DNA from: Phoronis ovalis
Lineage: Eukaryota > Phoronida > Phoronidae
DNA: 26,345 bases
NCBI GenBank assembly: GCA_028565635.1
Contig: JAOXYB010050613.1
Coordinates: 1-26,345, forward strand
Reading direction: 5' to 3'
Shown here: in pieces, positions 8,056 to 24,487 of the stretch
How the letters are laid out: every line of letters begins with the position of its first letter
Position numbering within the stretch: position 1 is the stretch's first letter
The notes under the pieces: model-generated
Database searches by the model: none
What the model was told of the DNA's origin: nothing
What the model saw: the letters and a program-made list of their open reading frames with translations, nothing else
Translations under genes and position numbers: made by a program

Positions 8056-8156
8056 AAGTAACTGAAATCAAAATTAATTGTTGTTACTTCCATTCCAATG
8101 AAGTTACTGTGAATTTATTTTTTGAATAATTATTTATTTACGATTTAATTTTAGAT

Positions 8157-8751
8157 ATGGCTTCATCTAGAAAAAAATACCAATATGATGTCTTTATCTT
8201 GTATTTGGAAGATGATTATACATGCAGAGATTTTGCAGTAAAGGAATTACTTGAGCCATTGGAATCGGAACCTTATTCTTTACGATGTGCCATAGAATTT
8301 CGAGATATGGGAGCTGGTGGTCTGTGGCTAGAGCAAGTTGTAGCACAAGCTGCATCTGATAGTATTTGCACTGTTATACCATTCTGCTCGTCAAGTGAAT
8401 GTCTGCGTGTAAAAAACAGTCTTCGGGCTGCAGTGTTAGCCAACTGTGATGCTCAAAAAGTTTTATTTATAAAATGTGATAATTGTCAAATTCCTGTTGA
8501 ATTGAAATCATATAGTACTATCGATGCTAGTAACCAGCACACACGCCAGTATATGATTCAGCGAATTCAAAAGACTGTGAAGGGGACTCAGACTCCAGAA
8601 GAGCCTTATATGCCTGATAGCACTACTGAGATTGATGTAGATGCAGAGTTAGTACATGCAGAAGATTCTGAAGTATTTGTAGGATTAAACTTTATTCAGG
8701 ACTCGAATCCAGCTTGTGGTGTAAAACTGCACAAAGTCTTCAAAATTGAAG
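8157..8751 (+). CDS. Exon 1: TIR domain
   Basis: Residues 1-198. Box 1 is YDVFILY (residues 10-16, family pattern (F/Y)DxFISY). The BB-loop box 2 is RDMGAG (49-54, family pattern RDxxPG, so the conserved Pro is Ala). An ELLEPLE helix lies between them. The segment SSSECLR...AQKVLFIKC corresponds to the MyD88-type SKEC...Q-R-IPI-K region. The glutamate used by NAD-cleaving TIRs (SARM1, plant TIRs) appears to be Asn at the matching place in VKNSL. The domain therefore looks like an interaction module rather than an enzyme. A 55-residue acidic linker (DAELVHAEDSEVF) follows. The donor is GAAG|gtttgt, phase 1. Confidence 0.85.
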
Positions 8752-11700
8752 GTTTGTTATTAATATATTTGTACAAAAAAAAGCAAATGAAAAGTTACAA
8801 ATAATTTGTAAAACAAGATGCAGTTGTATCAATGAAGGTAATTTATGTAAATTAAAGTAATGCTTTACTTGGTATGTGTTTTTGTTACCGTAAATATTTT
8901 TAACAAATTAAAATTGTGTGATTGCTTTAATGTTGAAACTTTGATATCTTTTTAATCAAATTTCAAATCAGCTCAAGAAATTTTGACAAAGTTTAAAAAT
9001 AACTGTGATTGTTGAGTGTATACTTTTATAAATTTGTACATGAAATATGTTAAAACTGCGTAATCTATTGTTGTCTGCTATCACTGTAGTGTAGTCTAGG
9101 ATAAATGACTATCATAGCAGCCTCCCCATAGGGTCATAGTCTAGTCTATGTAAACTCTGCTGATTCAAACTTTTTTCTGTTAAAAACATTCTAAGTGACA
9201 TCTTCTACAATTAAACATAATAAACATTTGTAGAAAAGACTTTTTAACAAGTAAAACTCATGTATCCAGGACTACCACTACAGTTGTTATCACTGAGAAC
9301 TAATACCAGCTACTTTCTTGTACATTTGAATTCCTTTTGATATTTGCTCTTTTATAGACCCCACTCCTCTCGAGGGATGTATGGAACAGCTATCATACCA
9401 AATTACATCCTCGTCTGAAAGTGGCAAAATTCAGCATGCTACTCAGTCTGTCCTTCAAATTCACTTACCTAATGCAGTGAAAAGTGAAGATTACTTGTTA
9501 CTGTTAAAGTTTGCTGACTGTAGTAGCAAGGAAGTAAAAATGAAAGCTTATCAAGCAATCTACAGCTTGCTTTATCATTACCTAAGTAAAAGCGACATAG
9601 TACACTGCATGGATGAGCGCTTTTACTCCCATGTTCTATACATTGAGCATGGTATTGCTAATTTGTTACGCAAGGAAACATTAGACACTGAACACAGTCA
9701 CTGTGAAAAGCTGTGGGAAGCTTATAGTATTATTGTAGGTATAATCTGCATCTGCTTTGCAGTGAAAACTAATGCCAAGAAATGGATAGTGGATAGACTT
9801 GGTAGAATACATTATATAAATAGTGCAGAGGCATTCACTAGAAGGTTCAGTTGGATTTTAGAATTGCCATGCTTAGCTAAATATTCAGTATCAACAAGAA
9901 GTTTACTTTTGTTCTGCCAGCAAGGCCTGCAACTCTTACGGGACAACAAAGGATTCACTGATGATATAAAAGCTCTATTTACACAAGTCCCTGTAGATGT
10001 GCGAAGCATTAAGAAATTTACGAAGATTCCTGTAACTTTTCAATGCATTTTTAAGATGCTGATCAGTTCTAAAGTACGTGTGGTAATGTATAATGTTCAA
10101 AATAGGTATTAAGCTGGGTAGTTCAGAGGGTGCTTCTGTTGCTTGCAGCTTAAAGTTTAAGGAACGTAAAGCCAGTTTTTATTAATAGGACATAGGTTGA
10201 AATAAACACCTTTATGCAGCCCAGACTGTAAACTTATATTAAGAGAATTTAGTCTAAAATTTGTTTGGCTCGTCATACTTCAAGGTATTTTTTTTACATA
10301 AAGTGTTAATTTTATAAAAAAAATTAGATGATCATGAAGTGCTTTAATTATTCAATATTATAATACCAAATGATTTTGCATTATTGGTGGATAATGCTCG
10401 CAATGGTTGATATTTTGGAGGTGTGTGTATCTCAGGTAACCATTTCTTACAATTATACCCATATGCCGCTTTAAATAGGAAGATTGTTCTTTGAAAAGTT
10501 ACCATACACAACATTGTATCCACTACACTTACATAATTTTTAGTAATATGCTCTAATTTCTAGATTATTCATGACAAAGATTTCGATACAGCAACTAAAG
10601 AAGCAATGTACATAGCATTGTATAACCTTGCCAAGAATATGACCAAATGCTACAGCAGTCTGACAGTAAAGAAAGAAGAAAAAGAGATGCTAGGATTATG
10701 TGTTGCAAAGTGCATAATTAACATACTAGATAATCACAAGTATAAACTAGGTATTACTATATATCTTGCAATACCTTTTTGAAAGTAATTTTGTAGATTT
10801 TCTTAAAATTTTTGGTTATGCATTAAAAAAAAACAATATTTAAATTATTACTATAAAGTAGCAGTCTCCTGTTTCTATACCTATATTTCCAGTACCATGT
10901 CAACAACTTTTGGCTTCATATAAATATAACCAGGTAGCAGGCACCTCAATTCTTTTTTTGAAGTTAAGCTTGCAGTGACCTATAATTTGGCAGAACTACA
11001 AATCATGTCACTTCCTTTGAAGGCCTTGATTTTTATAATTTGAGTGGGTTAATCGTAATGTCGTTTCTAATTTCAGCCAGAGATCATGATATTATCCAGC
11101 TTCTCTTTGAGCGTACTTATAAAAAGGCCTCAGATGCTGTTAAGGACGTGATTATTGAGAAAACTCAACATTTCCGATTTCATGCAAATTCTGAGATTCA
11201 AGAAAAGGTTATTACTTTCTTCTGTAACCTAAATGTTGGACAATCACCTATGAATGAAGCAAAGGATTTTATACAGAAGAAATATAGTACCGCAGTGGAG
11301 TTTCGATGGAACCCATATTGTCAGCCTGCATTGCAAAAACGTACAAAAGAAATAAACTATAGGGGCAAAATGGGAGAGCGGAATATTGTTACAAAGGTCT
11401 TGCATCTTGATCATTCAGATATATTACAACCCGAGTTATATTTGAAAATAGTTCAAAACAGTCATCAGTACAGGAACGGAAATATTTGCCATTTGCATGT
11501 CAATGAATTGGAAATCCTGACACAGCTAACTCCAAGCAGACATATCATCGAACTTTTAGGTTATCAAGTTCGACCAATGCCATTGTTCTACATTGTTGAA
11601 GACATACAAGCTGAGTATGACTCACTGAAGCATTATATATTAGATCAACGTTTGAAATACAATTACTTAGATTATGAATGCCTTCAAAAGATCAGCTTAC

Positions 11701-14700
11701 AAGTTGTGGAGGCTGTCAATTTTTGTCATAAAAACAACATTGTAGTAAGAAATATCACCCCAACCAGTTTTCTCATCAAGCCAAATAATGTTGTGAAACT
11801 TTCCAATTTCACTATTGCAAGAGAAATGAAGACTGGCATGTTTGATCAGCTAGTGTTTGAAGGTACCAGCTTTTATTATATGCTTTTCTGATTAAAATGA
11901 ACAAAAATTTTACTTTTCAACCTCCTTTTTGGGAAAGAAAATAATGTTATAGACTTTAAATTAAAGTAGGTAATTGTATATTGTCACTCTGTAGCAAATT
12001 GTAATAACATTGCTGGTGGTAAAGGTAATATTGCCACTGGACACATTGCTGGTGGTAAAGGTAATATTGCCACTGGACACATGGGTCAAAGGGGGATCCA
12101 CAAAAATTGTGTGAAAAGGAATATTTTGTTTGCAACCAGGGACGTAATGTGCGTTCGTTGTTAAGGGTATATATTTAGCTAAATATTGGCAAATAGGGTA
12201 CTGTTTTTGGAATGCAGATCTTCCAAAGGGTATGTTTATCACCATCATACACAGATGCAAAAATAAAAAAGGGTATATTTTCACCATTTAATGTGAAAAG
12301 TCGGGGTGGCTTAACCAGCATAGAAACATATTTACTGAGTGAGGTCTAGTAAGGGTTACTTTTTATACCTACATGTACAAGTCTTCCAAAAAGGGGTGCT
12401 TTTTTAGCAGGCTATGTTTGCGTTTAGGAGCTTTTTTTTAAAACCTATGTTTGTGTATGTGCACCCTCTCTTTACACAAGTGACACCCCCCGATATTGCC
12501 TATAATGTTGAATATCATAGTTAATTAAATAAATCCTTCGCTTCTGGAACTCTTGATGATACTTAGCTCCATTCAGTGTTTTTATAGTGACAATGTTTGT
12601 TTTTTGATTATTTGCAGATAAAGATGATGTTGATGCTCGTACCTATCTTCCAGTGTTGTATGCATCCCCAGAGTCTCTGTTACATGGTATTTATACAACT
12701 GCTCATGACACTTGGTCCGTAATATGTACCGCATATGAATTATTCACTATGGGATGTCCTCCATTTCATAGGTTAATCATTGAAAAAAGAAGACCAATAG
12801 TAGAGATATTGCAACTGGTAAATATCCGTAACTGACCGATTCCTTCTAACATTCCTTAATACAAGTTGTAATACATCAAAGATAGGTAATCTCAATATAA
12901 TGCAGTTACGATGATGTCATAGTATTATAGTATTATGTATTTGCTTGTTCAGCATTTATTTCCTAAGAAATTTAAGTAAGGAATAGACAGTAATGTTCAT
13001 TTTTTATTTCCCATGATTTAAATCAAACTATAGAAAACTTCTACATGTTGCATAAGAAGGTTCCTGTTAATTTTTGCTTTTTCGCCATCCCATATAAATG
13101 AGAAAAAATATTATTTATATCAGAAATCATAAGAAGGCGTAGAGAGGAGAGTCTAGATATCATAGGAGCATACTTCGTTCCAAAAGTTGAGTTCTTATTA
13201 AAAATAGGATTCATTTCCAGTTGGACCATATTAATTTGTATGGTGTGTTCAGAAAATGTGACTATTGTTTAAGAGTGCTTCAATTTTATAAATGCCTCCG
13301 TTTTATCAAAATTAATTGCTGAGCCTGAGCAAGCTGTAGAGAGATAACTGCTCAGTGATTTTTTCTGTATCGTCAAAGTATCTGCCGTGTATTATGAAAT
13401 TTTGGGTTCAACACCATTCATATGGATACCTTTGACATCTTTATCTTTACAATTAAAGATGTCTAAAATTTCGGCGCACAAAATAAATAAATATGGGGAT
13501 AAAGGGTAACCTTGCATAAGACCTCTTCATACCTTAAAGAAAGCTGTAGACCAGCCATTATTAACAACACACGAATATGATTTACATAATTATTAAAAAC
13601 AGATTTGACAATGACATACTAAGCTCCTGGTGTAATGGTAATTGCAAACATCACTGACAATGAAAATGCAGTAGGTGATATTCCTAAACAATTAATGTGG
13701 TTGAACTCTAATATTATGATAGCTAACAAATTATACTATCTGAAAACTGGATTAACAGGGCTGTGTTGTAAGTATCTGAATTGTTTTATATAGGTACGCC
13801 AATAAGCATATAAAGTTGATCAGTATAGTACAATGGAACTAAATCAGATGTTGGATACCATCCCAGCTAGATGGCAAAGGGTGCTTCAAGAAAGCATCCA
13901 TAATGTCTTACTATTCAAATTTTATGTTTAAATGTTTTATTTGTTAACTTCAACCTTCCAAGGCATCAATGCACTCTTATATAATTATTCATGCAACAGA
14001 AAATGAATGGAACATAGCGAGAATTGAAAATTTAATAGATAGTTTAGACATAAGATCAGATGGGGAAAATTTTGTTTTACAGTAATTTTCAGCATTGTAC
14101 ATGCACATGTAACACTCTCTTTGCTAAGTTGCATTCTATTTTTGTTTGTGTATTTGTTGTTTTTTGCAATAAATATTTTCTAAAAAAAGAGGAAAAAGAG
14201 GATACGTCTACATTGTATATGCAAAATATTAGTTTGTGGAATATTAATTTCTTAATTTATAAACTTTGCAGGTAATTTATGGTTTAAAACCCATTAATGA
14301 GGTCATTAATGTGCCCAGTGATGTATTGAAGGTAATGTTGAGCTGCCTGGAACTGGAATACAGTGAAAGGGGAACACTTGAACACTTTGTTGCAGCACTG
14401 AGACCCTCAGGTATATTGAAACTTTAGTGGAATTTCATGTTGAACAGTCGGAACTGTTGTTACTTTTGAGTAAGAACTTTCCCAATTGAGAAGGAAGTAT
14501 TTTAAGTAATTTGTTTATGAGAATAGTTATTAATAAAAGAGTTGGAGGGATTTTAAAATATGAAATTCTTTTCGTATTCTTGATAAATTAAAATGCCTCG
14601 ACATATTATAAAAATTGTTTTGGAATTTTATATGATGCTAAAATATAAAACTGTATCCTTTTGCAGGCAAACGCAGACTTTCAGGATTTCGTGTAGACAT

Positions 14701-17700
14701 TGATCTGTCAAAATTACCGTCATCTTACATTTATCAACCTGAAATAGAAGGAGTAAGTACATCATGCTACAAATATCAGACTTACATGCACTTAGTGGAG
14801 TCGCTGGTCATGAACCTAAATATCCCAGTATGCAGCAGTTTGTGAATGAACAACAATGCAGTTCTGTGCAGCCTCATGTGATTCATTCACAAAATGATGC
14901 ATGTTGGGAATGTTTAGGTCAGCAATTGGTGACTCCACTAAGTACATGCAAGTAGTATACGTCTTCCATTTAAAAAAGACTGTATACAGCATAGGTGACG
15001 TGAACAGCAACAAGTCTAATTTTACGATAAAAACACTTGAAAACATTTTCAGAGACTACCTTGGTGTCTATGCTGTATGTAAATAAAACATTTAGTTTCA
15101 AAATGACACAAAATCAATAATATCTTTGCTTACTGGAGCACATTATGTTATCTAATTTCATTGCATCAATATAGTAATAAATTATGAAATTTGATAAAAT
15201 ATTATTCATACTTTAATTTCTTCTAACTCGTATGTACTCAAATTTTCCAAATGGCAGTTGTACACTTTATTATGCAAACGTCTTTTTCTGTTAACCCTCG
15301 GTGTATTCTTTATTTATGTTATTTATTCTTCCAGAGTCTAGGCATACCATATGGCTTGAAAACAGAAGAGCAGGCTTTATGTAAGGATTTGTACCAATTT
15401 AAGTAAAAATGATTTTGAAAGCTGATGCCAAAATTAGTTTTTGAAAAGTATACCAAATGAATGTTGTTATATCTTCAGCAGCTGTTAAAATTTTGCTCAA
15501 AGTTTCATAAAGATAACATCCTAGAATTATATAAATCTCTTCATTTTTTATACTGTTCTGTGTGCAGAACTAGCTGCCTCTGCGCAGATGTTACATACAA
15601 ACATAGCAAGTCTCACTCTCCTGACTGCCAAAATGGAGCAATGACATTTGCCGATTTACTAAATGATGAGCTTTTCTGAGCTCAGTGTTGGATACAATTC
15701 TCACTGATGTCTTGTGCATTTATTTTATTTTTGGGGTTTTGTCAATTATTTATTTTCAAATAAATTATTTAAAATTTTCAAAAATTTTTGTTAAAAACTC
15801 TGCATCTACAATCTTGAATATTTGCTTAAATAAGCTTTATCTATCTATCTGCAAATTAAATTAAATTTTTAAAATTTGATCAAAATCTGCAACTTTTAAG
15901 CAAGCCACAATGGCCACTTATCAGAACATGAGAATTAGTTTCAACCTTGTGTCATTACATTCATTAACATTGAAATATAATCTTTGCAAAAATATATACT
16001 TTTACAGACTTATCTACCTTTTTGTTTTGATTTTAAAAATTAATATAGAAGATAAAAAGTCAAATAAGAGTGTCACAATGCCATTTGTGACTTCTATATG
16101 ATAATATAATCATCATGTTTTTTAATTAAGAAATATCTTAGTTCATAATAATTATTTTGTTTCTACAGGTAGCGAGCCCCCTTATGTTAATGCTCGCACA
16201 GAGGACATGAGAGTTAATGGGTATTTTCCTTGTCAGCTAGTAGAAGTATATCCTTGTAATCCACCTAAATTAACAACAGGAAATAAACAAGCAGGACAGG
16301 TATGAATGTGTACTACCATTGCTTACAGTTTGCTACTGATCATAGTAGTATCCATTATATAATACATGTATGTTGTATGTACAAGTGTTATAGTATATTT
16401 TAATGTCAAGCTCAAAATTAGCTTTAGATTGATGAATTATTTTTGTTTTGCCTAAACAAGCTATTTCCTCTTTATATTTAATACTTGAAAATTCAACGAT
16501 CTGTTATTAAAGAGTTGGCATAACTACAGGTACGAGCACTGGTAGTAAAACTTTGCATGAACTTGGTGAAGCCACCAAATGCGTGCAAATAGTATGCAAT
16601 GGTCCTAACCCGATTTTAGCACCAGGGGTTCTGACAATCCTACCATTTTTTATGGTAATAAAAGTGTGATGTCATGTAGGTAAAAGGTCAGGGGATTATT
16701 TACGTATTTGACATGCAACACTAAAAGAATAAGGACCATGTTGACATTTTTATATAAATACAACCGCAGAGTATACTGTATAACTATTATACTAGAACCT
16801 GCAAAACAAGCGATACATTAACTAGAGTGCTATTAATACAAGCGGATCCCAAAGGATATGCAACAAAACATAGCTACAACTTTAAAGAGCATCAGAAAGA
16901 TGAGAACAGCTAGAATTCAAGTTAATACAAAATAAATGCAGAATTAAAATGTGCTAATTATTCAGACATCTGAAGGAAAACTCAGTTTCCAATCTCGCTT
17001 CTGTTAGGTATAAGGGGTACTAGATATATCTGTGCATGCCTTGGATCATGTCAAACCAAATATATATGAATATATAGTGAATTTCTATTCTTTGTTAAAA
17101 TTATTGTTTCTCCTGAAGATTTAATTTTATAATAGGCTTATAAAACGATATTCGTATACTAATAGTTGCTAAGAATACTTGAAATACGATCATTTTGTAT
17201 AATTTAAAAGATGTGTTATTAGCTGGGTCCAAAATCGGGTTTGAACCGTTGAAAAAGAAGCTTAAGGTTTAGTTTCATAATTTCATATTACTTTATCTTA
17301 CACGTCTGGCATATATATATAGATAGTTAAACAACAGGCATTGTCTGACATTTTGAAACGCAAGCATCTTACTAGCCATCGGTGCGACTAGCTATCAGTA
17401 CAAGTTCAAAAAGCTTTGTAGTTTACCTCTATTAAAGGTAGCACCTATAAACCACAATCTGTAACTTATGACATGTGGTGTAAAAACACCAGCTTGTCTT
17501 GAAATGTTTAGTGACTGGTGTAAGCTATAAGTAACGAATATGTTACATACAAATTTATTTTCTCTTGGTCACTCTGGCTTTAACTGTGTTTTTCTTTACT
17601 GTATTATATTGAATTCTGATAATTAACAATTGAAATTTGATTTTAAAATCTACAGTTATGGCCAATGGCAAGTAGTTTGATCAATTTAGATTTTAGTAAG

Positions 17701-20700
17701 AACTTCATTGCAAATGGTTTATTTTTTTAAACAGGAATTTAGAATTATGTGCGAAGAAACAGATATTGATATCTTTTGTAAGGGCGAATTAGATGAATTA
17801 CTACAATTACAACACCATAACCTGGTACAAATGTTTGATACTATTCCAAACCCAAAATTAGGAACTTTGAAGTTGGTAAGTATTTGTTCTTAATTTAAGT
17901 TTTTTAACACAAAGAGAATTGTGTTTTCTCAGAAAGTGAAAAAATAATTTAGCTTTTATGTGTTTATGTTTTTAGAAAAAACCGGTGTCACTTGTGGTGA
18001 TGCTGCTTTAAGATTTATTAGTATGAGTTGTATTTTGCTTATCCACACAGTAACTAGTGTTATAGTCCTAGGCTATGTGTCGTCGTTGCATGTCACACAT
18101 TCTTTGTCTCGCAGTGACAGTTTCAGTTTATACCTGTTCAGCTTCATATTAAGTACCTGGTAAATACTGGTCAAAGTGCAGATTGGAAATAATTTTGACC
18201 AAGATTATTCCAGTATGGCCGACTGGCAGCCATATTTGTTTCTGAGAGGACCTGGATCACATCCAAGATAACGAAGCCATGTTTGTTCTCGAGATGGTAC
18301 GTTGCAGTAACAGCTTCAATTTTTATTAGATCAACTTCATATTCGGTACCAGGTCAACGTGCAGGTTAGGTATAGTTTTGACCCGGATTACTTCCAATAT
18401 GGCTGACTGGCAGCCATGTTTGTTCTCGAGAGGGCACATCATAATTCACCATTTTCCAGAAAAATCAGGCATTGCCTGGACGATTTCATGAATGTCATAG
18501 GTGTGTGGGCATATTGTTCTTGTAAACCAATTCTGTGTGAAGGTATGAATATGAAATTTGTCTGCATAGTTACACTGGAGACCAATACCTATGCACTACT
18601 TATTGCATATTTGACCAACTGGTTGAGCAAAAACTGTCTATAATAACTTGTACAATGCAATTGCAAAAATAACATGTCATAGTGCAAACATCCATTCTAT
18701 TCTAGTACTACAAACTGGAAAGTTATGAAGAACTGTCATTTTATGATATTGCAAGGAACAAGACTGAAGATAAGCAATATTGCCTAGACAGATTAGCCGA
18801 GATTGCTTGTGGCTGTTCTTACCTCCACGAAAAAGGATGGATTTTGAGAGACATTAGACCTGAATTTATACAGATTGTGAATGGCCATGTAAGTAGGCAA
18901 ATATATTAAATTAACCTCAGTCTCATAAAATGTTTCAGTTTCCACATATGAATTTCATAATTTTTGGAACTATCATTTAATTTGATTGAAACTTGAGTGG
19001 GAAAGAAATTGTGAAACAACTAAATCTAACAAGTTTAACTCACTTGTAAGCTTTACTATCAGCTGTTTTAACTCCTCCAAAGATTGTGAATGAGTAGTAT
19101 TAAAAAAAAGTCGTTTTTCATTCTTTTGAATCTGCAGTACAATTGTTTTTGTTTAAGTTACCTTGTGTTTAATCTGCAGCATTCAACATACTATAACTTA
19201 CTTTATGTGTATCTTACAGTCTGTAATTGCTCGCATAAGTCGAATGGTGAAGTTAAAGTTGTGCTGTTATGACCGCTCTAGTACATACTCGAATTGCAAA
19301 GTCAAACTAGACGTACCTTTGGATTTAAGGAGAAGGTGCGCTATTTATGCAGTATCCCTATTACATTCATATGCACCAGTAATTATATGATAATTGTTCT
19401 CCTTATTCTGCCACAGGAATAACAAATTGTGCTTGGCAGAAATAGCACAAGGTTTGAACTCCGCTCATATAATATTTGGTGAATTATTGAAGTTTTGAAA
19501 AAAAAATTAGGACATTTTGGATCAAAAACATTATTTAATTAACATCCAAACTCACCACAGCATTGCACGCTTTGTCCAAGTTTTCCTAAGTGTTCATTGT
19601 ACTGCGGTGAGTTAGATTGTTGATTAATCTATTGTGTTTTCTGTGCCGCGAAATTACAGAATGCATATAGACTGTACACTGTTTGTAAACTTTTTTGGTA
19701 GAATATTGTAACATGTGATATAACGAAGAAACCTACTTTTATTATAGTCGGCAGAAAAATTGTATGACCATTCCCACCATACATAGAAAATTTAGCAGAG
19801 TTGACAAACATTTTAAAGCAAAAATCACAAATATTAAAGATGTAAAATCAGATGCGTCTAAAAGTGGTTAATGATGAGAAAAATATATATTACAACTAAT
19901 TTGTACCAAATTATCTCTTATGAAAATGCACATCATTTGAATGCCTTCTCTTTGTAGAATACCTCTTGAATCACTACAAGACGGAATTTTTTCTCAAGGT
20001 TCTGATGTGTTTACATTTGGCATCTTAGTGTATGAGGTGTACTTTTTACTAAGTACAAAAATAAAAGACCAGGCAATGGAGGAATTGGTTCCCTATTGCA
20101 GCATAAAACTTGACGAGGTATAATTTGCCATATGTGTAGCATTTAAGTTAAAGAGAATTTTTTTAAATTTACTGTATTTGTAGATTGGCAAATGTTAAGT
20201 CTTAAGTTTGTTAATTCAATCCCAGGTAAAAGTTTCATTACATGGAAAAATTTTATAGCTCGGGATACATTGTGGTAGTTTGCTCGACTTTCCTATCTAT
20301 TTCGTTCATCAATGTGAAAAATAGGCTTATGAAAGTACAAAAAAAATTGGAAACACAATATTCACTAATGTTTACAATTCAAAACTTTAGGTTTATAAAA
20401 TCTGGTGATATGACCCAAGAAGTGACTGTTTTGGGAAAAAATTGTGTTGGTTAATTCTTCAGGAGTGAAACGGCTGCTTTAGGTTGATATTTGCTATTGT
20501 TATGAAAGAACAAATTCTGTTCCAGATTCCAAACTTTCTAGAAGAAAGAAAAACTTTAGAGCAACCTTGCCTTATGCCGGACAGTATTTACCACATTTGT
20601 AAGAAAACCTGGTATCAAGAGCGAATAAATCGACCAAGTATGGCTGACATTACAGAAAATTTAAAGTTAGTGCGAATTTTACATACGAGCAACAAGAAAA

Positions 20701-23700
20701 AAAGAATTCTTGTACAAAAATAAACTGATTTTAATAGATATTGTATGTAGGTGAGGGAAGTTTAGTGTATAACTTTTGTTAACAATTATTAGGACTATTT
20801 ACAGCGGGTATTTAATTTCAGAAACGCTATCAAAGGCAATTGTAGCACTTCACATCTGTTGACTGGTTACAATAAATTATAATGTCAGAATTAAAGCAAA
20901 TGTTGGTTACCTAACAACTATCATCAATGTGCAGTTATACTATCTTAAATGCACCATTTCAAACTAGTTATCAGTTGAATTACGATTTTGTTATAATGTA
21001 TGTGTTTGCTAAATATGGTATCAAACGATTAAGCTGTAGGGCGACAAATAGTTTTACACAACAAATGATTTTCCATGCTATGGGGATAGTTATCTTGTGT
21101 TTTGTATCTATAAACTTTAAAAATTATCTGCAACAAGCTATAACACCTGAAACATATTTAAGTGACGTTGAGCCCTCCTGGAATATTAATTGTGGATCAG
21201 CCTACAGAAGCAACAAAAGAAATGAGCTAGTATAAAAAACAAATGCCCATGTGTGTATCATGCCATTGTGATATGTTTTAACTTTATCTAAATCAATTTT
21301 TTTTTATTGCACAGCTCACCGAAACTTATATCATATAAAAGACGTCGAGTAAGCTTGAATGGAAGAAGTATGCCGGCTGTACCGAGCATGTTTCACCACA
21401 GAGGATCTATAAAACACCAAAATGAAGGTAGCGTATTGTAATTGGGATAATTATGTTGCTGTGCAATATTTTTCTTGAGAAAGGTATTACCAGTTTTAAA
21501 AATAAACACATTATACACAAAAATATATGTTGATGTTTGGTACCATACATGCAGCCTTTATATAAGATTCTGTTTTGGCAACTATGCAGAAAACCCAAGG
21601 TTTCACTGTATTTTAAAGTCCTCCAGCAGGATGTAGGTTACATCCTAGATGGAAAAGGTCAGCTATGAAGAAGCAACTAACCTGACTAGAATTTCACTCC
21701 CTCCTGTCATTACTATTATAATAAGATATATGAATAGTCATGAGGCACTTTGAAAAGATGGGCTAGGCTCAATTACTCAACTGAGGGAGTGATCACCATA
21801 CCCTGATCTCTAAAATATGCTAGTGAACCTGGACGATCCTTTGTTAGTCGAAGATGTGTATTCAAGTTTGAAATTTGATATGAGGCAGTAAATTTGGAGA
21901 GTGACATAATTCTTACTTATGTAGATTAGAAGATGATGAGCAGGTAATTAAACTGCAATAATATTTACAGAGCTTGAAATCTTACAGATAGTGTACAATA
22001 TCACTAAAAGTCCATTATTTTCTTACAGTAAGGACAAGAATTGGACAGAATATCAAGGCCAAAATTCCTGAATCAGAGGATAGCCAGAGTGAGTATCATT
22101 CAGTGCAGTCTTCCATTAAGTCGAGCATCTCATCACAAAATACTCAAATGCCAGCCTTAGCAGGTCAAGGATCCCATAGCAATGATAATTATCAAATGCC
22201 AGCCTTAGCAGGTCAAGGATCCCATAGTAATGATAATCATCAAAGTTTCCCAAAAAGGTCACTGGGAAGCAGTAGTAATAATAGCAGCATCAGAGTGGCA
22301 GATGTGTCACCCAGTGGCAGTAATGATGGCAGTGTTGGTGTGTTTTCCCAGCATTCACCTAGCGGTTCCTCAAGCTACGATTTAAATCTGTGTAGTAATT
22401 ATAACTTGCGAAAAGGTGTACATAGAATTAGTATACACGACAATGAAGCAGAGTATGCTAATTTTGATGCTGGAAATAGTATAGTGGAGAGTCAGTATGT
22501 TCACAGCATTGATGATACAACTTCGCTTGATTCATGGGGAACCGACTTTAATGACAATCCAGAAATTGAAAAGCATAATGTAACTTCACATTTAAGGAAA
22601 TTCTTTAAAAACAGGAAAAGGAAAGATGAGAAGAAAAAGAAGAATGTTTCTAATGCGGGTAAACAAAAAGCTGAAAAGAAAAGAATTTTTTCTCGAACAT
22701 TAAGTGAAGAAGAATATCAAAATTCTGACTATTGTGAAGGAGTTCGAAGGAGCTTGAGTGAGCCTAATTACTCACATGTTGACAAAGGACTTAATCCTCA
22801 AGGTGGCGGCAACATTTCTGATTCCCATATATATGATACAACACTGCCCCCACGGTTTTCAATGTACAACAATCTTAAAAGTACTGTTTCTCTGTCAGAA
22901 ATGGAACAGGAAGAAGCGTTAAGTCCTGAAAGTAGATATAACAGCCATACCTTAGCAAAACAGTTGAACTCTCATAAACTAGAGAGCACAGGGTCATATA
23001 GACATGGAAATTTTACTTATGGTTCTGTTAACTGGTGTCAAAGCATAAGAGATAAGGATGACACATATACGGAACATGTGCACTCAGTTGAACATTATCA
23101 GAATCCATGCAACGTGGTGTATGACTCGGAAAGTAGTAAACATGTTGCCAAAGGACTTAATTCACAAGATGGCAGCAGCATTTTTGATAACCATATTTAT
23201 GATACAACTCTGCCCTCCGCGTGTTCAACCTACAACAACTGTGAGAGTACTCTTTCTTTACTGGAACTGAAACAACAAGAAGCATCAAGTCCTGAAAGTG
23301 TTGTTAACAGTTGTGCTGTGACGGAACAGTTGTGCACTGGCAAAAGTGAGAGCACAAAGTCAAATGGAAGTCAAATTAGTTTAGCTTATCAATCTGACCA
23401 GTGGTGTCAAAGGGCAAGGGAGAGAGATGATACGTATGGGGACCAGGGATGCTCGGCTGATGAATCTCACCAAAACCCATACAACATAGGATGTTACTCT
23501 GAGGGTTACAAACAAGTAGACAAAAGAGTCAATTCACAAGATGGCAACAAGATTTCTGATTCCCATATTTATGATACAACTCTGCCTCTGAAGTTTTCAA
23601 TGAACAAATCCGACAGTAATATCTCTTTGCAAAAACTGAAGCAAGTAGAGCTGTCAAGTTCTGAAAGTGTGGATAATAATCGTTCTTCAACAGAACAGTG

Positions 23701-24487
23701 GTATTCTGATAAATATAGATGCAAAGGGTCAAATATGCATGAGATTAGTGTAATTTATAGTCCTGACGAAGGTTGTCGAAGCTTAAGAGATAGAGATGAT
23801 AAGTATGTGGAACAAGTGCACCCTGTTGATGAATCTCATCACAATCTGTGCAACATGGGATATTACTCTGACAAAGGGCTCAATTCTCAAGGTGGCAGTA
23901 ACATTGCTGATTCACATAAGTATGATGCAGCTGTTCCTCAAGTGTATTCAGTATACAAGTCTGAAAATAATAATTCTCTATCAGAGCTAAAACAAGCACC
24001 TAATTGTCACACTTTAGCAGAACAACTATGCTCTGATGAATATAAGTGCAAAGGGTCATATAGACATGGAAATAGTTTAGCTTATGGTCCTGACAACTTG
24101 TGTCAAAGCCTAACAGATAGATATGGTAATACATATATGGAACAGGTATGCTCAGTTGATGAGCCTGCTCAAGATACATGCGATATGGGATATTACTCTA
24201 AGGGCTATCATGGGAATTCTCACCAGTTTCTGGCTGATGATTATTATGGGGATCAGCAAATGTTTCGCTCTGCTGATGATAGAAGAAGTGCACATATGTC
24301 TGCTAATGATGCGCTGCCATATTCTGAAAGTTTTGAATATACACAGAACTTGCCAAAACATGATTACCCTAAGACAGAGGCAAATGCACACCAGAGTTGT
24401 AGCAGTAACTATGAAATATACCAAAGTCGAACAAGTTTAGAATCAATCTATGAGAACCTGGCAATAAAATTTGAGGAAGACATTTAA
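8157..24487 (+). CDS. TIR / ARM-like / tandem pseudokinase / repeat-tail protein (2065 aa, 16 coding exons)
   Basis: Exons are 8157-8751, 9358-10073, 10564-10750, 11077-11862, 12618-12817, 14272-14410, 14667-14752, 15335-15380, 16169-16299, 17735-17875, 18706-18888, 19220-19335, 19958-20117, 20526-20665, 21315-21427 and 22029-24487. They total 6198 bases including TAA, and every donor and acceptor phase agrees. Domain order is TIR (about 8-142), a helical ARM/HEAT-like region (about 200-590), pseudokinase 1 (about 590-880), a linker, pseudokinase 2 (about 925-1209), and a low-complexity tail with a lysine-rich patch, four long repeats and many Tyr motifs (1210-2065). No signal peptide is visible and it is probably cytosolic. 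Lost catalytic residues in both kinase folds suggest a scaffold or adaptor, perhaps in innate immune signalling given the TIR domain; that role is inference. The ATG was chosen because a 3' splice site lies two bases upstream and the TIR domain starts ten residues later. I do not recognise a named gene. Confidence 0.82.
8752..9357. other. Intron 1 of the TIR gene
   Basis: GT-AG intron of 606 bases with no other gene. A weak inverted repeat (CTGCTAT near 9075, ATAGCAG near 9116) is the only structure seen. Confidence 0.6.
9358..10073 (+). CDS. Exon 2: helical ARM/HEAT-like region, part 1
   Basis: Residues 199 (split) to 437. The segment EDYLLLLKFADCSSKEVKMK (starting at 242) has the HEAT/ARM two-helix look: a leucine-rich helix, a short acidic turn, then a V-x-x-x-A helix. 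The rest is rich in Leu, Ile and short amphipathic helices. A 14-residue hydrophobic run (YSIIVGIICICFAV, 321-334) is short for a membrane helix and is more likely a buried helix. The donor AAA|gtacgt (phase 0) is chosen because the open frame beyond it soon ends and the next exon continues in phase 0. Confidence 0.8.
10564..10750 (+). CDS. Exon 3: helical region, part 2
   Basis: After ttctag this exon encodes residues 438-499 (IIHDKDFDTATKEAMYIALYNLAK, broken here as one long amphipathic helix) and then a second helix ending ILDNHKYKL. It leaves in phase 1 at CTAG|gtatta. Composition and spacing fit further ARM/HEAT-type helices, but no named family is recognisable. Confidence 0.78.
11077..11862 (+). 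CDS. Exon 4: end of helical region and N-lobe/catalytic loop of pseudokinase 1
   Basis: Residues 500-761. The kinase fold starts near 590. G596 and G599 sit where a glycine loop would be. The beta-3 segment ELYLKIV supplies K623, and alpha-C NELEILTQL supplies E643, so the Lys-Glu pair is kept. The catalytic loop reads IVVRNITPTSFLI: H-R-D becomes V723-R724-N725, and the metal-binding Asn becomes S730. D-F-G becomes N743-F744-T745 in KLSNFTIARE. Loss of the catalytic Asp and the magnesium-binding residues makes phosphotransfer very unlikely. ATP could still be held through K623. The donor is GAAG|gtacca, phase 1. Confidence 0.87.
11863..12617. other. Intron 4, with a 36-bp perfect duplication
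   Basis: GT-AG intron. Its only clear feature is the direct duplication at 12009-12080. The minus-strand open stretch at 11961-12287 merely reads through that duplication. Confidence 0.6.
12009..12080. repeat. Perfect 36-bp tandem duplication
   Basis: The unit 12009-12044 (attgctggtggtaaagg...actggacac) is repeated base for base at 12045-12080. Identity of both copies suggests a recent slippage or duplication event inside intron 4. Confidence 0.9.
12618..12817 (+). CDS. Exon 5: activation-segment end and C-lobe of pseudokinase 1
   Basis: Residues 762-828. VLYASPESLLHGIYTTAHDTW (split here) carries S778-P779-E780 in place of APE and D792-x-W794-S795 in place of DxWSxG. CPPF follows, as in subdomain IX-X of active kinases. 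This conserved structural core shows a genuine kinase fold even though the catalytic residues in the previous exon are lost. Acceptor tttgcag, donor CTG|gtaaat, phase 0. Confidence 0.87.
13040..13640 (-). mobile_element. Decayed LINE (non-LTR retrotransposon) reverse-transcriptase fragment
   Basis: On the minus strand, intron 5 translates to recognisable reverse-transcriptase blocks: VVNNGWSTAFFKV near 13574-13536, then after a stop GLMQGYPLSPYLFILCAEIL (about 13525-13466), then VKGIHMNGVEPKIS (about 13435-13394). The QGxPLSPYLF block is the classic LINE palm motif. Stop codons interrupt it, and the catalytic YADD box is no longer intact. The fragment is a truncated, inactive relic, old enough to carry several stops. 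The exact ends are uncertain. Confidence 0.75.
14272..14410 (+). CDS. Exon 6: last helices of pseudokinase 1
   Basis: Residues 829-874 (split 875). VPSDVLKVMLSCLELEYSER (842-861) is the counterpart of the CPxxLYxLMxxCWxxxPxxRP segment of tyrosine-kinase-like folds. C853-L854 replaces Cys-Trp, and the conserved subdomain XI Arg is kept as R861. Acceptor tttgcag, donor TCAG|gtatat, phase 1. Confidence 0.85.
14667..14752 (+). CDS. Exon 7: linker between kinase folds, part 1
   Basis: Residues 875-903, opening GKRRLSGFRVDIDLSKLPSS and closing YIYQPEIEG. GKRRLSGF resembles a basophilic-kinase site. No domain is visible. Boundaries ttgcag and GGA|gtaagt are near-consensus, leaving phase 0. Confidence 0.8.
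14780..14953. mobile_element. Near-perfect 174-bp foldback (MITE-like or hairpin precursor)
   Basis: The left arm 14780-14864 and right arm 14869-14953 are reverse complements over about 80 bases with scattered mismatches. acttacatgcacttagtgga on the left pairs with tccactaagtacatgcaagt on the right, and gtttgtgaatgaa pairs with ttcattcacaaaa. The loop is only a few bases. Both strands are accidentally open here and read similar short peptides. The structure suggests a palindromic miniature element or a long RNA hairpin. No convincing target-site duplication was found. Confidence 0.65.
15335..15380 (+). CDS. Exon 8: 46-base linker micro-exon
   Basis: Fifteen codons (residues 904-918, SLGIPYGLKTEEQAL) plus one base of a Cys codon. 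The acceptor cttccag and donor T|gtaagg are strong. The phases (0 in, 1 out) fit exons 7 and 9, and also the candidate alternative last exon at 15588. Confidence 0.75.
15588..15679 (+). CDS. Candidate alternative last exon (short isoform)
   Basis: After ctctgcgcag, the phase-1 donor of exon 8 would read in frame through YVTYKHSKSHSPDCQNGAM and FADLLNDELF to TGA at 15677-15679. An exact AATAAA follows at 15759-15764. Such a transcript would encode TIR, helical region and pseudokinase 1 only (about 949 residues). Nothing else proves the exon is used. It could be a chance open stretch in a 788-base intron. Confidence 0.3.
16169..16299 (+). CDS. Exon 9: linker and start of pseudokinase 2 N-lobe
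   Basis: Residues 919 (split) to 962, from CSEPPYVNARTEDMRVNGYF to TTGNKQAGQ. The VNGYFPCQLVEVYPC part has the alternating hydrophobic pattern of kinase beta-1/beta-2, but no GxGxxG loop. Acceptor tctacag, donor CAG|gtatga, phase 0. Confidence 0.78.
16300..17734. other. Intron 9, 1.4 kb, with imperfect terminal inverted repeats
   Basis: No gene is visible. An approximately 26-bp imperfect inverted repeat (ggtcctaacccgatttt at 16601 and its counterpart aaaatcgggtttgaacc ending at 17247) brackets about 647 bp and could be the ends of a non-autonomous DNA transposon. On the minus strand 17238-17248 reads GGTTCAAACCC, an exact match to the RNA polymerase III B-box consensus. No tRNA cloverleaf can be drawn around it. 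Confidence 0.4.
17735..17875 (+). CDS. Exon 10: beta-3/alpha-C of pseudokinase 2
   Basis: Residues 963-1009. EFRIMCEE occupies the beta-3 position, but the ATP-binding Lys of VAIK is missing (R965-I966-M967-C968). LDELLQLQHHNLVQMFD fits alpha-C and beta-4, with E983 at the conserved Glu site and the (L/I)xHxN(L/I)V signature intact. Acceptor aaacag, donor TTG|gtaagt, phase 0. Confidence 0.83.
17876..18705. other. Intron 10 with a diverged direct repeat
   Basis: GT-AG intron. Two related blocks, 18118-18250 and 18309-18434, share the order cttcatatt, ggtcaa-gtgcag, ttttgac, att--tccagtatgg and ctggcagccat-tttgtt. A third partial end (gccatgtttgttctcgaga) lies at about 18276. Open stretches here are not conserved. 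I name no repeat family. Confidence 0.6.
18706..18888 (+). CDS. Exon 11: C-lobe start and catalytic loop of pseudokinase 2
   Basis: Residues 1010-1070. YCLDRLAEIACGCSYLHEKG (1034-1053) is the alpha-E helix in the tyrosine-kinase-like form (LxxxxxIAxGxxYLHexg). The catalytic loop reads WILRDIRPEFIQI: His becomes L1056, Arg and Asp are kept (R1057, D1058), and the metal-binding Asn becomes F1063. So this domain keeps the catalytic Asp that pseudokinase 1 lost. Acceptor ttctag, donor CAT|gtaagt, phase 0. Confidence 0.87.
19220..19335 (+). CDS. Exon 12: DFG-equivalent and activation segment of pseudokinase 2
   Basis: Residues 1071-1108 (split 1109). MVKLKLCCYDRSS aligns with the beta-7/beta-8/DFG strand. 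D-F-G is replaced by L1084-C1085-C1086, abolishing the magnesium-binding Asp. The acceptor is ttacag. The donor AGAAG|gtgcgc is weaker than the others, but it is the one that gives phase 2, which the next exon requires. Confidence 0.75.
19958..20117 (+). CDS. Exon 13: APE and DxWSFG-equivalent of pseudokinase 2
   Basis: Residues 1109-1162. IPLESLQDGIFSQGSDVFTF (1110-1129) matches the tyrosine-kinase segment M(A/S)PESLxxxxFSxxSDVWSFG, with P1111-L1112-E1113 for A-P-E and D1125-V-F-T-F-G1130 for DVWSFG. ILVYEV follows. Acceptor tttgtag, donor GAG|gtataa, phase 0. Confidence 0.87.
20526..20665 (+). CDS. Exon 14: last helices of pseudokinase 2
   Basis: Residues 1163-1208. CLMPDSIYHICKKTWYQERI is the counterpart of CPxxIYxLMxxCWxxxPxxRP, and RINRPSMADI keeps the subdomain XI Arg (R1198) and Pro. 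The donor TTAAA|gttagt is chosen because it gives phase 2, as the next exon needs. Reading through instead would stop at 20721-20723 after about 19 further residues. Confidence 0.82.
21315..21427 (+). CDS. Exon 15: basic start of the C-terminal tail
   Basis: Residues 1209 (split) to 1246. SPKLISYKRRRVSLNGRS is basic, and RRRVSL is a classical basophilic-kinase site. GRSMPAVPSMFHHRGS follows. The phase-2 entry is required because the other two frames contain stops early in the exon. Acceptor gcacag, donor GAAG|gtagcg, phase 1. Confidence 0.75.
22029..24487 (+). CDS. Exon 16: long repetitive tyrosine-rich C-terminal tail with stop
   Basis: A 2459-base last exon (residues 1247-2065) after cttacag, ending EEDI-TAA. 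It is rich in Ser, Asn, Tyr, Asp, Gln and His and has no globular domain. In order it holds a doubled 16-residue block (about 1286-1317), a Lys-rich patch (about 1436-1470), RRSLSEP (1486-1492, an exact RSxSxP 14-3-3 type motif), four long repeats (1498-1970) and a closing SIYENL. Y-x-N motifs include EYANF, EYQNS, MYNNL, HYQNP, TYNNC and IYENL. The exon shows one uninterrupted frame for over 800 codons, which supports its being coding. Confidence 0.9.
22145..22240 (+). repeat. 48-bp direct tandem repeat inside exon 16
   Basis: 22145-22192 and 22193-22240 differ at two bases (agc/agt and tat/cat). Each encodes QMPALAGQGSHSNDN plus Tyr or His. The high identity marks a recent in-frame duplication. 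Confidence 0.95.
22781..24199 (+). repeat. Four tandem repeats of about 110-124 codons
   Basis: Units start at 22781, 23147, 23519 and 23870 and end at 24199 (122, 124, 117 and 110 codons). Each begins (D/A)K(G/R)(L/V)N(S/P)Q(G/D)G, then (I)xDxH(I/K)YD(T/A)(T/A)(L/V)P, an SL-E-(L/M)KQ segment, an EQ(L/W) segment, a WCQ-like segment with R(D/E)(R/K)DD-Y, and a final C(N/D)(M/I/V)xYYS-like block. Divergence between units shows that this duplication is older than the 48-bp one upstream. Conserved Tyr codons recur at equivalent places. Confidence 0.92.

Follow-up and report, generated by a model that had tools for sequence, protein, structure and literature searches.

In the genome of the phoronid Phoronis ovalis we identified a gene whose predicted product joins, in a single chain of 2065 amino acids (aa), a very worn N-terminal TIR domain, a conserved middle region, two predicted pseudokinases (PK1 and PK2) and a long serine-rich tail. 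The gene lies at 8157-24487 of the stretch of DNA analysed here (the window), which is the complete contig C2994 of 26,345 bases (JAOXYB010050613.1, assembly GCA_028565635.1); the genome data searched comprised 77 Mb in 4805 contigs. It belongs to a maintained gene family, and we see about an even chance that its product is a catalytically silent scaffold for TIR signalling.

Rebuilt from the window, with exon boundaries picked by reading the sequence, the gene comprises 16 exons of consistent phase, all 15 introns are bounded by GT and AG, and the sole stop codon of the frame is the terminal one. A preliminary description of this DNA had proposed sixteen phase-consistent exons in one chain, and besides the intact rebuilt frame a complete paralogue, which runs on the minus strand of contig C3456 from 41233 down to 18385, agrees with it. 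This second copy has 16 matching exons in the same order, GT-AG at 15 of 15 introns, the phases of the window copy and an intact frame of 1636 aa, with 64% identity to the window copy over the core. We set its boundaries manually, starting from tblastn matches and guided by the window phases, so that the agreement in phase is a fitted one; what counts as independent evidence is that GT and AG are present at every place where they are needed and that the frame stays open. A third copy was seen in two pieces, exons 1-3 at the end of contig C3365 and exons 9-15 on contig C1839, with exons 4-8 and 16 not seen; that the pieces form one gene is our guess from their fit, and they may be two genes. 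Between the window copy and the C3456 copy, the ratio of nonsynonymous to synonymous substitution rates (dN/dS) in the core is 0.29 (0.24-0.36) over 1213 codons. By part, it is 0.45 (0.28-0.68) in the TIR, 0.27 (0.19-0.36) in the middle region and 0.38 (0.09-0.93) in exon 15, and the lowest values are those of PK1, with 0.23 (0.15-0.34), and PK2, with 0.19 (0.11-0.31). Two full copies, a partial third and the core dN/dS together identify a maintained gene family rather than mis-joined genes. The features read in the window copy are as follows.

8153-8154, plus strand: likely 3' splice site AG, 2 nucleotides (nt) before the ATG in 3/3 copies, read by eye
8157-8751, plus strand: exon 1, degenerate TIR (about aa 1-143) and variable linker
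9358-10073, plus strand: exon 2, conserved region in the interval between TIR and PK1; the ARM/HEAT region of the preliminary description, a fold not confirmed
10564-10750, plus strand: exon 3, continuation of the conserved region between TIR and PK1
11077-11862, plus strand: exon 4, end of the conserved region, then start of PK1
11442-14391, plus strand: PK1 (pseudokinase 1), aa 622-868, exons 4-6; Pfam Pkinase, E 3.1e-22
12618-12817, plus strand: exon 5, part of PK1, with an SPE motif in the APE position
14272-14410, plus strand: exon 6, end of PK1
14667-14752, plus strand: exon 7, linker between the kinase folds
15335-15380, plus strand: exon 8, linker of 46 nt, against 52 nt in the C3456 copy
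16169-16299, plus strand: exon 9, 131 nt in 3/3 copies, leading into PK2
17774-20663, plus strand: PK2 (pseudokinase 2), aa 976-1208, exons 10-14; Pfam PK_Tyr_Ser-Thr, E 1e-20
21315-21427, plus strand: exon 15, basic segment, conserved
22029-24487, plus strand: exon 16, serine-rich repetitive tail of 819 aa, poorly conserved (30% identity where aligned)
22144-22244, plus strand: tandem repeat inside the tail, 2.1 copies of a 48-bp unit

Two readings would deny that this is one working gene. Two adjacent genes, one carrying TIR, middle region and PK1 and the other PK2 and the tail, could have been mis-joined at about 15.4-16.2 kb: intron 8 holds an open frame (15461-15679) that ends in a stop, and the dN/dS of the linker (exons 7-9), 0.66 with an interval of 0.36-1.37 that includes 1, is not significantly below 1, which counts against a single chain. 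The preliminary description had itself pointed to a possible break near 15680. The C3456 copy, however, has matching exons 7, 8 and 9, and its intron between exons 8 and 9 measures just 256 bp, scant space for the end of a gene and the promoter of the next; this makes the break unlikely, and we set the two-gene reading aside as very improbable. Even less credit can be given to a pseudogene in decay, to which the fast-evolving tail and the worn TIR might point, given that the frames are intact in both full copies and that the core dN/dS stays so low over all the codons compared.

Both kinase folds are clear from the Pfam matches listed above and from matches to PDB sequences, and the claim of two degenerate kinases made in the preliminary description is well founded, the catalytic residues being gone. 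In PK1, read in two copies, VRN stands for HRD (aa 723-725) and NFT for DFG (aa 743-745; DFT in the C3456 copy), and in the alignment with EGFR a Ser takes the place of the loop Asn. In PK2, read in three copies, the catalytic loop is LRDIRPEF (aa 1056-1063) throughout, and in the alignment with EGFR the loop Asn is replaced by Phe and DFG is absent. Measured against the set of an active kinase (HRD Asp, loop Asn and DFG), PK1 is thus without the HRD Asp and the loop Asn in its two copies, and PK2 without the loop Asn and DFG in all three. Both are predicted to be pseudokinases, and catalysis by either seems unlikely from these residues, residual or unusual activity being conceivable. Since PK1 and PK2 have the lowest dN/dS of all parts, the folds appear to be maintained despite the lost catalytic residues, and this conservation argues for a structural role. 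The two folds match each other by hhalign with a probability of 69%. Among the best 60 of 454 PDB rows for PK1 the top ones are EGFR, FGFR3 and CSK, and among the best 60 of 500 for PK2 they are EGFR, RTKC8 (which we take to be a choanoflagellate protein) and JAK2; the scores are too close to fix the kinase family.

The TIR domain is recognised at the level of profiles. It lies in exon 1, with a box 1 YDVFI at aa 10-14 and a box 2 RDMGAGG at aa 49-55. A profile of the three copies gave 13 matches at E<=10 among PDB sequences, and the top ten, with E from 2e-4 to 0.014, are without exception TIRAP TIR domains. When the exon 1 profile was compared by hhalign with three TIR domains of the Toll-like receptor (TLR) type from the same genome, the match spanned 64 columns and scored 34.4 (E 7e-5), whereas 200 column shuffles peaked at a score of 20.1 and two comparisons with unrelated profiles gave no match. 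Pfam found no TIR in the window copy; across the three copies it gave a weak TIR_2 in two (best E 0.062) and TIR in one (E 0.12), and exon 1 of the window is absent from the 19 and 24 places in the genome found by two Pfam TIR models. The TIR of the preliminary description is therefore upheld by profile and not by Pfam in the window copy, and the domain, as far as such comparisons tell, is real but very worn. In an alignment of so diverged a domain, none of the three copies has a Glu where TLRs have one after the W-G/C motif, a position that we take to correspond to the NADase Glu in SARM1. The genome also encodes Toll-like receptors and tyrosine kinases, which together with the COX1 of contig C1114 (see below) point to an invertebrate animal, and on contig C3375 TLR-like frames with TIR (L001, L002 and L004) are clustered, with four Pfam TIR places on that contig.

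Between TIR and PK1, the middle region of the window copy is 57% and 60% identical to those of the other two copies. It has no convincing Pfam family, and its profile matched two PDB chains only, both with E 1. Neither search returned ARM or HEAT, so the helical-repeat label given earlier to this region is not confirmed. Neither Pfam nor the PDB profile of the middle region yielded a FERM, an SH2 or a Death domain, and no SAM was matched by Pfam; as Pfam also missed the worn TIR, a diverged SAM could escape it, and the negative for the Death domain has the same limit.

The tail of the window copy is 15.8% Ser and 6.1% Tyr and contains some four repeat units, spaced by shifts of 109-124 aa. That of the C3456 copy has 406 aa, and comparison of the two lengths indicates that the repeat has lengthened or shortened after the gene was duplicated. 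The preliminary description had spoken of a repetitive phospho-tail of about 850 residues: the repetitive part holds, and the phosphorylation part finds no support, since nine classes of short motif, Y..L, Y.N and [ST]P among them, all failed to reach 0.05 against 2000 shuffles per tail in the two copies. The nearest values were 0.055 for Y[DE] in the tail of the C3456 copy and 0.092 for Y.N in that of the window copy. A YE.L sequence stands near both tail ends (YENL and YEEL), which we mention as a lead only.

How might such a protein work? As a scaffold, its worn TIR would dock on other TIR proteins, the conserved middle region would serve as a spacer or binding surface, PK1 and PK2 would bind partner kinases and steer them allosterically while phosphorylating nothing themselves, and the long, probably flexible tail would supply docking sites. 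We infer the docking of the TIR, the partner kinases, the flexibility of the tail, a cytosolic location and a role in innate immunity. Several observations weigh against this scaffold. The TIR is the sole pointer to the putative immune role; its hhalign match has a probability of just 62%, the top Pfam match in exon 1 of one copy is a non-TIR family (IBR_1, E 0.022), and exon 1 modelled alone by AlphaFold2 gave a mean predicted local distance difference test score of 33.6, so that the model was not used. PK1 may still have its beta-3 Lys, which we located by eye at aa 606, and in PK2 the Asp of the catalytic loop survives (aa 1058, in LRD). In the window copy four 19-aa Kyte-Doolittle windows exceed 1.6, all at one place (from aa 316-320), with none in the C3456 copy, and the dN/dS of the tail is 0.39 (0.13-0.58) on a poor alignment.

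The main competing explanation, which we regard as unlikely on present grounds, is by analogy with IRAK3, a pseudokinase thought to restrain IRAK4 (PMC7955167): the protein could be a negative regulator or decoy that keeps partners of its TIR and kinase folds engaged and dampens Toll signalling. Dead kinases next to a TIR would suit such a dominant-negative design, but Pfam finds no Death domain, and the direction of an effect is not readable from sequence. It is also conceivable, if rather improbable, that the protein is a non-immune scaffold derived from tyrosine kinases, with a part in development, adhesion or the cytoskeleton, in which the TIR is merely an oligomerisation module. The TIR is highly diverged, and among the best 60 PDB rows per search PK1 and PK2 match almost only tyrosine kinases (EGFR, JAK2, EPHA2, FGFR, CSK and others, with one CDKL2 row); in most cases, however, the TIR domains of animals are linked with SARM1 or with signalling by Toll and IL-1 receptors. 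Returning to the signalling scaffold, the suggestion in the preliminary description that fusion of TIR and kinase would bypass the usual handover from TIR to kinase is weakened, because both folds are without catalytic residues in the copies read. Tentatively, and with a good deal of doubt, we propose that the genes represent an undescribed animal family of TIR-double-pseudokinase scaffolds in which TIR signalling would involve no catalysis and rely solely on allostery, and which would replace or gate the MyD88-IRAK step.

Proteins that share some of these parts are well known. SARM1 combines a TIR with a helical region, but its TIR is C-terminal, whereas that of the window protein is N-terminal, with no SAM by Pfam and no Glu at the presumed NADase position. 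MyD88 consists of a Death domain and a TIR, and the window protein has no Death domain by Pfam, which missed the worn TIR too. JAKs resemble it in having two tandem kinase folds, and the kinase domain of JAK2 is among those to which PK2 is similar; JAKs, however, have one active kinase, whereas here both folds look dead, neither Pfam nor the middle-region profile finds FERM or SH2, and a TIR stands at the N-terminus. SCYL proteins are pseudokinases with HEAT repeats and no TIR. Tandem kinase-pseudokinases such as Yr15 bring tandem kinase folds into plant immunity (PMC6170490), and like SCYL they differ from the window protein in domain order.

Fusions of TIR and kinase have been published. The choanoflagellate "Kinase TIRs" are described as having a TIR and a protein kinase in one protein, with no transmembrane domain, and as unique to choanoflagellates within the data of that study, which also proposed the bypass idea and mentions choanoflagellate proteins in which a TIR occurs with Arm repeats (Richter et al., 2018; PMC6040629). 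The window protein likewise unites a TIR and a kinase fold in one chain, apparently with no transmembrane domain, hydropathy exceeding 1.6 at a single place in this copy and nowhere in the C3456 copy; by the description given there, it differs in its double pseudokinase (PMC6040629). Pkinase is found by Pfam and the TIR by profile only, and the agreement is one of definition. In animals, Novel Gene 3 of a sea anemone, as described, joins a tyrosine/protein kinase, a Death domain and a TIR, plus Roc/COR and SH3 (PMC5094078), and so resembles the window protein in joining kinase and TIR, while the latter is without these extra domains by Pfam and has its TIR first. ARM-TIR (Aplysia, oyster), EGF-TIR, ARM-Death-TIR and other proteins are described in molluscs with no mention of a kinase, and in the same group of papers ecTIR-DC family 6 carries a Death domain and two TIRs (PMC9334734, PMC4346834, PMC6836662). 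If the middle region is made of helical repeats, ARM-TIR proteins and ecTIR-DC family 6 would have in common with the window protein the pairing of such a region with a TIR in an invertebrate; by their descriptions they show none of its kinase folds. The word TIR is absent, by word search, from the main text of a survey of holozoan tyrosine kinases (PMC8662651).

Searches of a protein database gave no match at E<=1 (5008 and 6626 candidates) or at 0.001 (6386); as the last of these did not return even ordinary kinases, this probably reflects coverage and is not read as rarity. The literature search, which excluded Gerdol et al. 2017, reportedly a classification of bivalve TIR proteins where the family may be named, brought up no protein that has two pseudokinases behind an N-terminal TIR. 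As fusions of TIR and kinase and the bypass idea are already in print, only the domain order and the double pseudokinase look unfamiliar. If the scaffold reading is correct, two dead kinases would carry the signal of an animal TIR protein within its own chain, which would offer a direct test of how far TIR signalling depends on catalysis as opposed to scaffolding, and a further animal case with a new domain order would stand beside the choanoflagellate and sea anemone fusions.

The start of the gene deserves a separate comment. In all three copies, read by eye, a T-rich stretch and an AG (8141-8156 in the window) precede the ATG by 2 nt; of the 616 ATGs in the window, only 4 show such an AG with at least 5 T within the preceding 8 nt. 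This apparent acceptor suggests that exon 1 probably receives a leader by splicing, with transcription beginning further upstream, so that 8157 may lie outside the first exon of the transcript; a spliced 5' untranslated region or a trans-spliced leader acceptor is possible. When the 93 forward open frames of 25 aa or more that precede exon 1 in the window were compared with the upstream regions of the other two copies, the C3456 sequence amounting to 1333 bp, no convincing common coding exon was found: the 17 matches at E<=0.1 were all of at most 31 residues, and the best (E 0.001) had an internal stop. One DNA match upstream, of 110 bp and 74% identity on opposite strands, may be a repeat.

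Within intron 4, at 12007-12082, a 36-bp unit is present in 2.1 copies that match at 100%. Further upstream in the window, the open frame 2345-2680 has a weak Pfam match (E 0.013; 16 bits, where the cut-off is 27) to the C-terminal domain of leukotriene A4 hydrolase and is perhaps an exon of a neighbouring gene. Elsewhere in the genome data, contig C1114 looks mitochondrial: its COX1 has six in-frame TGA codons and is open under genetic codes 4 and 5, and the frames beside it are presumably ND2 and COX2.
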